32,061 nt of DNA. It comes from Pseudomonadota bacterium (GTDB lineage Bacteria > Pseudomonadota > Alphaproteobacteria > CACIAM-22H2). Each line of letters starts with the position of its first letter. Positions within the stretch are counted from its first letter, which is position 1. The position numbers and the translations under genes are program-made. The DNA lies in the NCBI GenBank assembly GCA_016201015.1, contig JACQDQ010000227.1:1-32061 (forward strand), read 5' to 3'. Shown here piece after piece: positions 11,363 through 13,210 of the stretch. The notes below the pieces were generated by a model, which searched no databases, was not told the DNA's origin, and saw only the letters and a list, made by a program, of their open reading frames with translations.

Positions 11363-11538
11363 CGCGTTGGCGGAGCGCGCGGCCTTGCGCTTCACGACGG
11401 TCGACTTAGGCTCGGCTTGACCTATCTCAACGCCGGGTATCGCGCGGCGATATGGTCTGGCTTGCGAGCCCAGATGCTGGGCGCGGTGCGGTGGTTGTTG
11501 ACGGCCAGGATGTGCACGAGGGGGCCCACGCCGTGACG

Positions 11539-12360
11539 ATGAAGACGATCCTGGTGCACCTCGCCGATGACGCGGACTGCGCCGGACGCCTGCGCGCCGC
11601 TCTCGCCTTCGCCAGGCACTTCGGCGCGCATGTCAGCGGCGTCTACACCTCGCCGCGGCCCGAGCCGCCGCCAGTGCTGCTCGGCCGTGGCGCATCGCTC
11701 GGGTTCGTCGATGAGGCGGCGGCGCTTCTGCGCAAACACGCCGCTGCGAGCGAATCGATGTTTCGCAAGAGCTGCGACGCGGAGAACGTGCCGCATGATT
11801 GGCGTCACGAGTTGGGCGATCCCACCGATTCTCTGGCCCGCCGGCTGCACTATGCGGACGTCGCATTCGTCAGCCAGTCGGCGCCGAACGCCGTGAAGGC
11901 GGCGGCGCTGCTCTATCTGCCCGACCATCTGGCGATGATGGCCGATGGTCCGGTTGTCGTCATGCCGCACGGCGCGCCACCGCGCTCGCTGGGACATGTC
12001 GTGCTGATCGGTTGGAAGCCGTGTCGCGAAGCTGGCCGTGCGGTGCGCGATGCCCTGCCGGTTCTCGCGGCGGCCGATCGCGTCGCGATCCTCACGGTCG
12101 GCAAAGGCGAGGAGCTGCGGGAGTCCGGGGCGGCGCTCGCGGCGCGGCTCAATCGTCAGGGCATCGCCGCCGAGCCACATCACCGCGACGCAGCGGATAA
12201 CGAGGCCGCTGCCGCCCTCCTCGACGAGGCCGGCCGCATGGAAGCCGATCTCGTGGTCATGGGCGCCTATGGCCGCTCGCGGTTGAGCGAACTGGTGCTG
12301 GGCGGCGTCACGCGCCACACGCTCGCCGCGATGCGGGTGCCGGTCCTGATGTCGCATTAG
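11539..12360 (+). CDS. Universal stress protein, tandem UspA-type domains
   Basis: The 273-residue protein starts MKTILVHLADD and has two Usp folds. The first (about 1-140) is divergent. The second (about 150-273) ends with the nucleotide-binding pattern DLVVMGAYGRSRLSELVLGGVTRHTLAAMRVPVLMSH, close to the classical G-2x-G-9x-G-(S/T) motif with Thr in place. Usp proteins bind ATP or act as stress chaperones in the cytoplasm. GTG 11533 is an alternative start two codons upstream. It sits between infC and rpmI, which are adjacent in most bacteria. Upstream, TTGACC (11417-11422) and TATCGC (11438-11443) with a 15-base spacer form a weak promoter candidate. Confidence 0.88.
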   Translation: MKTILVHLADDADCAGRLRAALAFARHFGAHVSGVYTSPRPEPPPVLLGRGASLGFVDEAAALLRKHAAASESMFRKSCDAENVPHDWRHELGDPTDSLARRLHYADVAFVSQSAPNAVKAAALLYLPDHLAMMADGPVVVMPHGAPPRSLGHVVLIGWKPCREAGRAVRDALPVLAAADRVAILTVGKGEELRESGAALAARLNRQGIAAEPHHRDAADNEAAAALLDEAGRMEADLVVMGAYGRSRLSELVLGGVTRHTLAAMRVPVLMSH

Positions 12361-12426: not shown

Positions 12427-12455
12427 TTGCGTCGGCGGCGGCCGCCCGCTATAAA
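12427..12455 (+). promoter_or_regulatory. Promoter for the rpmI-rplT leader transcript
   Basis: TTGCGT (12427-12432) and TATAAA (12450-12455, 5 of 6 to consensus) are separated by exactly 17 bases. The expected start near 12462 lies immediately before the structured leader described next. Confidence 0.6.
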
Positions 12456-12461
12456 CGCGGC

Positions 12462-12567
12462 CTTGCGCGAGCGGCCACGGCCGGGCTCGATGAGCCCCTG
12501 CGGGCATGCCCAACCGCTCGCAATCAAGGGCCTTCGCGGCCCTTCACTTATGCGACGGAGGTACCAA
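12462..12567 (+). ncRNA. Structured 5' leader of rpmI-rplT, candidate ribosomal-protein autoregulatory RNA
   Basis: A closing stem GCGAGCGG (12467-12474) with CCGCTCGC (12514-12521) encloses two hairpins: GGGCTC (12483-12488) with GAGCCC (12492-12497) and GGG (12502-12504) with CCC (12509-12511). Together they form a three-way junction. A separate hairpin AAGGGCC (12526-12532) with GGCCCTT (12538-12544) follows. Then comes the rpmI Shine-Dalgarno GGAGGT at 12557-12562. L20 is known to repress its own operon through leader RNA in E. coli and Bacillus, so this RNA may bind L20. The match to a named leader family was not tested. Confidence 0.55.
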
Positions 12568-12765
12568 ATGCCCAAGCTCAGGACGAAGTCGAGCGCGAAG
12601 AAGCGCTTCGGCTTGACCGGACGCGGCAAGGTGAAGAGGGCGCACGCCTTCAAGCAGCACAATCTGCGCAAGCGCTCGAAGGATATGAAGCGCAAGGCGC
12701 GGGGCACGACTCTGCTTGCTCCTGGCGATGCCGCCAAGATCAAGCGCCATTTCCTGCACGTCTGA
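12568..12765 (+). CDS. rpmI: 50S ribosomal protein L35
   Basis: The 65-residue highly basic product begins MPKLRTKSSAKKRF and contains the L35 signature KRAHAFKQHNLRKRSKDMKR-type region, ending KRHFLHV. It binds 23S rRNA in the large subunit. The start is fixed by the strong GGAGGT ribosome-binding site 5 bases upstream. rplT follows after 15 bases with GAAGGGAG as its own site, so the two are one operon. The operon appears to have its own promoter and leader rather than depending on infC. Confidence 0.97.
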   Translation: MPKLRTKSSAKKRFGLTGRGKVKRAHAFKQHNLRKRSKDMKRKARGTTLLAPGDAAKIKRHFLHV

Positions 12766-12780: not shown

Positions 12781-13146
12781 ATGGCACGCGTCAAACGGGG
12801 CGTTGCGGGACATGCCCGTCACAAGAAGGTGCTCGAGCTGGCCAAGGGCTATGTCGGCCGCTCGCACAATACATTTCGCCCGGCGCTCGAGAAGGTCGAG
12901 AAGGGGCTGCGCTATGCCTACCGCGACCGGCGCAACAAGAAGCGCGACTTCCGCCGCTTGTGGATTTTGCGCATCAACGCCGGCGCGCGCGCCGAGGGCC
13001 TCACCTATTCGCAATTCGTCGCCGGTTTGAAGCGCGCCGGCATCGCGCTCGACCGCAAGGCGCTCGCCGACATCGCGGTGACTGACCCGGCCGGCTTTAG
13101 CGGCTTAGTCGCCCAGGCCAAGGCCGCCCTGGGGTCCGCCGCCTAA
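12781..13146 (+). CDS. rplT: 50S ribosomal protein L20
   Basis: The 121-residue basic protein begins [19 protein letters not shown] and contains the L20 core [29 protein letters not shown] and [17 protein letters not shown]20 is needed for early 50S assembly, binds 23S rRNA, and in several bacteria represses its own operon through a leader RNA that mimics that site; the leader at 12462-12567 is the obvious candidate target here. The length is normal, and the C-terminal extension (from about residue 105) is common in this class. An intrinsic terminator follows 26 bases after the stop. Confidence 0.98.
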
Positions 13147-13166: not shown

Positions 13167-13210
13167 AAAAAGGGGAGGCCTGGCTCCAGTCAGGCCTCCC
13201 TTTTCGTTTT
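13167..13210 (+). terminator. Intrinsic terminator between rplT and pheS
   Basis: GGGAGGCCTG (13173-13182) and CAGGCCTCCC (13191-13200) form a perfect 10-bp stem with an 8-base loop, preceded by a run of A and followed by TTTTCGTTTT. It is the strongest terminator in the window. It ends only about 10 bases before the pheS GTG, so it may act as an attenuator for pheST. Confidence 0.9.

Follow-up and report, generated by a model that had tools for sequence, protein, structure and literature searches.

The 5′ end of the rpmI-rplT transcript is predicted to fold as an H-type pseudoknot in which a leader loop captures the start codon of rpmI. The most likely function is autogenous translational repression in which the pseudoknot is stabilized by ribosomal protein L20, and the probability of this interpretation is roughly 0.75. 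The locus is found in the window (the whole stretch of 32,061 nt that was analyzed), which comes from an assembly of 551 contigs. Judged from open reading frames, the window carries thrS, infC, a universal-stress-protein-like gene, rpmI, rplT and then apparent pheS and pheT genes, with a terminator-like hairpin at positions 13169–13204 between rplT and the apparent pheS. The closest rplT sequence is that of a Rhodospirillales MAG (75% identity), and the named relatives place the window in Alphaproteobacteria. The leader and the genes that it precedes have the following features.

12427–12455, plus strand: promoter-like site, TTGCGT (12427–12432), 17-nt spacer, TATAAA (12450–12455); read from the sequence, with a −10-like box in relatives.
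12467–12474, plus strand: 5′ strand of P1, GCGAGCGG; covariation in relatives.
12479–12481, plus strand: 5′ strand of P2, GGC, after internal loop CCAC (12475–12478); GGC/GCC is invariant and the flanking pair covaries class-wide.
12483–12497, plus strand: insert hairpin GGGCTC-GAT-GAGCCC in loop 1, variable and optional; loop 1 is 1–70 nt in relatives.
12502–12507, plus strand: GGGCAU in the apical loop, which forms the 5′ side of the pseudoknot stem; covaries with the first two rpmI codons.
12508–12510, plus strand: 3′ strand of P2, GCC, followed by CAA (12511–12513); from comparison of relatives.
12514–12521, plus strand: 3′ strand of P1, CCGCTCGC; covariation in relatives.
12526–12544, plus strand: linker hairpin AAGGGCC-TTCGC-GGCCCTT, 7 bp, lineage-specific, which shortens the linker; read from the sequence; in relatives, too, long linkers tend to fold.
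12557–12561, plus strand: Shine-Dalgarno GGAGG of rpmI, within the strand that closes the pseudoknot; read from the sequence.
12568–12573, plus strand: AUGCCC, the first two codons of rpmI (start codon and codon 2), forming the 3′ side of the pseudoknot stem; covaries with the apical loop.
12568–12765, plus strand: rpmI (ribosomal protein L35); open reading frame and relatives.
12781–13146, plus strand: rplT (ribosomal protein L20, the likely ligand); open reading frame and relatives.

The apical loop hexamer at 12502–12507 is the exact reverse complement of the first two rpmI codons at 12568–12573. The pairing spans 60 nt between the leader loop upstream and the start codon downstream. Stem 1 consists of P1 and P2 (12467–12481/12508–12521) with the internal loop CCAC/CAA, and stem 2 is the 6-bp helix 12502–12507/12568–12573, with an estimated energy of −8.6 kcal/mol. 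There are zero bases between the two stems on the strand they share. Loop 1 (12482–12501) carries a hairpin in the window and is between 1 and 70 nt long in relatives, where inserts of differing sequence are common at the same place. Loop 3 (12522–12567) contains the linker hairpin and the Shine-Dalgarno sequence; the linker is 18 to 109 nt long in relatives. The geometry of an H-type pseudoknot allows a loop 1 of one nucleotide together with a longer loop 3. The H-type assignment fits because loop 1 goes down to 1 nt, the stems are contiguous and the linker is at least 18 nt. Long linkers of relatives tend to fold (mean z −1.7, against composition shuffles only), which suggests that the role of the 7-bp hairpin in the window is to shorten the linker.

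For the comparative analysis, DNA upstream of rpmI was taken from 96 relatives, from a class-wide draw and from 80 named loci found via rplT. This gave 269 distinct upstream regions, of which about 260 were usable alphaproteobacterial sequences (258 in the occurrence count below). When whole leaders were aligned with MAFFT, the 5′ strand was misplaced owing to the length variation of loop 1 (1 to 70 nt), and this alignment was replaced by anchored blocks with loop and linker removed. A scan for structure alone, blind to the loop sequence, often chose the wrong GCC. Many relatives share a common hairpin. P1 has 5–9 bp of nearly free sequence and is followed by a short internal loop or one-base bulge; P2 is N-GGC/GCC-N′, and the GGGCAU apical loop lies immediately 5′ of the GCC. 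P1 has 8 bp in the window. Covariation among relatives shows that P1, P2 and the loop-start pairing, as deduced from the aligned sequences, exist. In 20 leaders of one offset class, the P1, P2 and pseudoknot pairs were formed in 96.8% of cells, a figure in which the P1 share is biased upward since rows were grouped by best P1 offset with loop and linker cut out; the diversity of pair types is unaffected by this. The same 20 leaders display 48 double changes against a shuffled mean of 14.5, and none of 500 shuffles reached 48. Sliding the partners by 1–3 columns lowered pairing to 34%–45%. Class-wide, the P2 flanking pair is found as CG, UA, GC, AU and GU, and within the CAA type, which includes the window, P1 covaries too. 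The CCAC internal loop and CAA are somewhat conserved in the window's family.

The structured rpmI-rplT leader that had been predicted is thus borne out, as one conserved in Alphaproteobacteria, by covariation, a check that was named beforehand. The 8-bp closing stem GCGAGCGG/CCGCTCGC of the original prediction is present and covaries strongly across the class, and the 7-bp hairpin placed ahead of the Shine-Dalgarno site is also there, though it is lineage-specific. The two hairpins said to be enclosed by the closing stem fared differently. The letters of both GGGCTC/GAGCCC and GGGCATGCCC are present, but the self-pairing of GGGCATGCCC is not the conserved one; the conserved, covarying partners of the bases at 12502–12511 are GGC at 12479–12481 and the rpmI start codon, not each other. 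The promoter and stems lie where they had been placed, but the conserved part of the element runs past its earlier end at 12567 and reaches 12573.

The pairing of the loop with the start codon was analyzed in 128 loci detected without reference to the start (N-G-N-[C/U]-A-U-G-C-C with GGC and P1). Loop base 1 and start base 6 are G-C in 110 loci, U-A in 4, C-G in 3 and A-U in 2; the Watson-Crick total of 119 compares with a permuted mean of 100.3 and a maximum of 109 in 20,000 permutations. Loop base 3 and start base 4 are G-C in 119 loci and A-U in 5, i.e. 124 Watson-Crick pairs against a permuted mean of 114.7 and a maximum of 121 in 20,000. Neither test corrects for relatedness, and the Roseomonas-type AUGUCC cases probably represent one event. 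Most of the remaining covarying cases come from separate families. Individual loci display the changes on both sides: AUGCCG with a CGGCAU loop (L007), AUGCCA with UGGCAU (L075, L167, L240), AUGCCU with AGGCAU (L066, L168), AUGUCC with GGACAU (L177) and, with one wobble, GUGGCC with GGCCAU (L006). In a short-loop form, GGGCU precedes GCC in 17 loci with AUGCCC, and CGGCU is found in 4 loci, where the start is AUGCCG in 4/4. A cross-table under a looser criterion gave the same loop/start diagonal. The outer pseudoknot pair is mismatched in some leaders (L078, L143, L172). The pseudoknot reading is supported by this tracking of codon changes by the complementary loop, at two independent positions and in unrelated lineages.

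Under stringent detection, 112 of the 258 alphaproteobacterial regions upstream of rpmI have the hairpin together with start complementarity; dinucleotide-shuffled sequences gave 0–3 and the opposite strand gave 4. An exact loop-linker-start pattern, which is strict and misses most true leaders including that of the window, was present in 5 of 299 Pseudomonadota genomes, all Alphaproteobacteria; the reversed control gave 0. The leader hairpin is absent from many of the sampled rpmI loci of SAR11 (Pelagibacteraceae: L247, L254, L256, L258, L260, L263, L265–L268, L270–L272), and this form of control was apparently lost or never present in that group. The same SAR11 loci have a promoter-like box directly before rpmI. 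Four betaproteobacterial loci (L246, L250, L255, L274) display a different conserved sequence about 140–40 nt before rpmI, which in L250 reads AAGUGGCUCGGGGCCAACAAG ... GGCGCCU..CGAGCACAAACC. This sequence has no Rfam match and may be another leader.

A well-spaced promoter had been predicted, and TTGCGT, the 17-nt spacer and TATAAA are in place. A strict sigma-70 scan of the window did not include this site among its calls. A TATAA-like box within 45 nt upstream of P1 is present in 96 of the 128 related leaders compared with 20 of 128 control windows, mostly at 12–16 nt from P1; therefore transcripts should begin just before P1. Transcription is expected to start at about 12462 in the window. 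The universal-stress-protein-like gene (11452–12360) splits the usual infC-rpmI-rplT order, and the end of infC is about 1.2 kb upstream of rpmI. A separate promoter for rpmI-rplT makes sense here, because another gene separates it from infC. A transcription attenuator was rejected, as a terminator-like site is absent between 12462 and 12567. An upstream open reading frame at the leader AUG was also rejected, since the AUG is lost in GGGCUGCC forms.

The element displays what is expected of an r-protein leader, i.e. a conserved, covarying 5′ UTR structure that overlaps the initiation site through the loop-start pairing. In the proposed mechanism, the 5′ end of the rpmI-rplT mRNA would fold into P1 and then P2, and the apical loop GGGCAU would pair with AUGCCC. 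The pseudoknot stem would stack directly on P2, with the Shine-Dalgarno sequence in the connecting strand. Free L20 in excess of its 23S rRNA sites would bind and stabilize the pseudoknot, which would then deny the start codon to 30S subunits, and rplT would be shut down together with rpmI through translational coupling. Uptake of L20 by rRNA would let the pseudoknot open and translation resume. L20 as the ligand is a reasonable assumption from the operon content and by analogy with E. coli. With respect to binding, a possible mimic of the L20 site in 23S helix 40/41 (two consecutive G-C pairs by an AA dimer, an arrangement common to known L20 sites) can be read in the window's family as GG/CC with CAA (GCGG...CAACCGC). 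It does not extend across the class, where A is at the second base after GCC in 46% of leaders and at the third in 32%. No direct copy of the 23S site was found: the window's genome gave no 23S match, and in two relatives the 23S genes are without the GGGCAUGCC motif at the L20 site.

The regulator of the same pseudoknot could instead be L35 (the product of the first gene) or another factor, or there may be no protein at all and the structure would set a low or temperature-dependent initiation rate. This is considerably less probable than control by L20. The comparative data speak to the RNA and not to the ligand, L35 is encoded on the same mRNA, and at about −8.6 kcal/mol the 6-bp stem could open unaided. 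On the other hand, L20 is known to autoregulate these genes in E. coli and B. subtilis (PMC10931766), and the conservation of CCAC and CAA in the window's family exceeds what a plain stem needs.

The original prediction described a three-way junction, in which P1 closes the GGGCTC/GAGCCC and GGG-CAUG-CCC hairpins, L20 recognizes the junction and a pseudoknot is absent. The conserved inner pairing is however P2 (NGGC/GCCN′) and not the GGGCAUGCCC hairpin, and an H-type pseudoknot takes the place of the junction, which is now very unlikely. The first hairpin is missing or different in relatives, and both the P2 flank and the loop-start pairs covary. Among 25 leaders that depart from consensus, loop base 1 is complementary to the start in 16 but to the following base of the leader itself in only 6, thus the palindromic hairpin is not what is conserved. 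The junction is the nested minimum-energy form of 12467–12521 by 2.4 kcal/mol (−29.3 versus −26.9 kcal/mol for the P2 form, with the −8.6 of the pseudoknot stem uncounted) and may be the open state. The folding energy of the window leader is unremarkable (z −1.2 and −1.9); the evidence for the leader is comparative, because minimum free energy alone proves nothing. Least probable of all is that GGGCAU is kept as a direct protein-binding sequence or as a leader AUG or upstream open reading frame, its match to the start being coincidental. AUGCCC and GGGCAU are each strongly conserved in most lineages, but the two co-vary at two positions, AUGUCC and GUGGCC starts included, and the leader AUG is missing in GGGCUGCC forms. 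Unless shared ancestry should prove to have produced the covariation as an artefact, this explanation can be regarded as refuted. As a separate observation, the P1 3′ strand CCGCUCGCA (12514–12522) can alternatively pair, at nearly equal energy, with UGCGACGG (12551–12558) beside the Shine-Dalgarno sequence. This pairing is possibly a second, Shine-Dalgarno-blocking state; it was not seen by eye in the near relative L004.

The pseudoknot with L20 as its probable ligand may be set against what has been catalogued. The comparison with Rfam L20 leader models that had been proposed gave no match, nor did any other family of Rfam 15 match on the leader: the window has no match at the gathering score and none around the leader up to an E-value of 10, and 20 relatives gave three weak matches, all off the leader hairpin. 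The 20 leaders that were published in 2020 (Eckert and Weinberg, PMC7247131) do not include this one; the alphaproteobacterial leaders described there are for L2 and L17, with none for L20 or L35, and its L20 leaders are a deltaproteobacterial candidate besides the established gammaproteobacterial and Firmicutes ones. A literature search, with subscription papers mostly beyond its reach, found no alphaproteobacterial rpmI leader. It is probable, if slightly less so than the function proposed above, that the element represents an uncatalogued class of r-protein leader found in much of Alphaproteobacteria, with a loop that captures the first two codons of rpmI and a pseudoknot locked by L20. If so, the third position of codon 2 is tied to the loop, as is even a Pro to Ser/Ala change or a GUG start. 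The co-evolution of the loop with codon 2 makes the mechanism accessible to simple compensatory mutations in alphaproteobacteria grown in the laboratory.

Control by L20 is a textbook example of r-protein autoregulation, established in Gammaproteobacteria and Firmicutes and a candidate in Deltaproteobacteria. The E. coli S15 (rpsO) operator is an r-protein-stabilized pseudoknot at the initiation region, but differs from the present leader in gene, ligand and sequence. The L20_leader of Firmicutes (the B. subtilis infC operon) is located before infC and acts by transcription termination (PMC10931766). It resembles the present element as a leader of L20-encoding genes with L20 as ligand (presumed here), whereas the alphaproteobacterial leader has no terminator and no Rfam match. 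The deltaproteobacterial L20 candidate also came from comparative analysis and has a conserved rRNA mimic made up of an AA dimer together with two G-C pairs, but belongs to another lineage and has another scaffold (Eckert and Weinberg 2020, PMC7247131). In E. coli, L20 binds a pseudoknot near the rpmI start and represses rpmI, with rplT repressed by coupling (PMC6962249, PMC10931766). That operator consists of a long-range pseudoknot and an irregular hairpin bound by L20, according to the work of Lesage (1990), Chiaruttini (1997) and Guillier (2002, 2005) as cited in PMC6962249 and PMC10931766. Both systems place a pseudoknot at the rpmI initiation region, and repression of rpmI would be coupled to rplT here also. 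Unlike the E. coli operator, the present leader is compact, has its own promoter and pairs with the start codon itself, and in the window a gene lies between infC and rpmI; the pairing seen here is not of the E. coli type, in which the end of infC pairs with bases shortly before the rpmI start. The function proposed for the alphaproteobacterial leader resembles that of the E. coli rpmI operator, with a different scaffold and target. Convergent use of pseudoknots at rpmI is suggested, and if the proposed function is correct, a pseudoknot operator was invented independently at the same gene as in E. coli.
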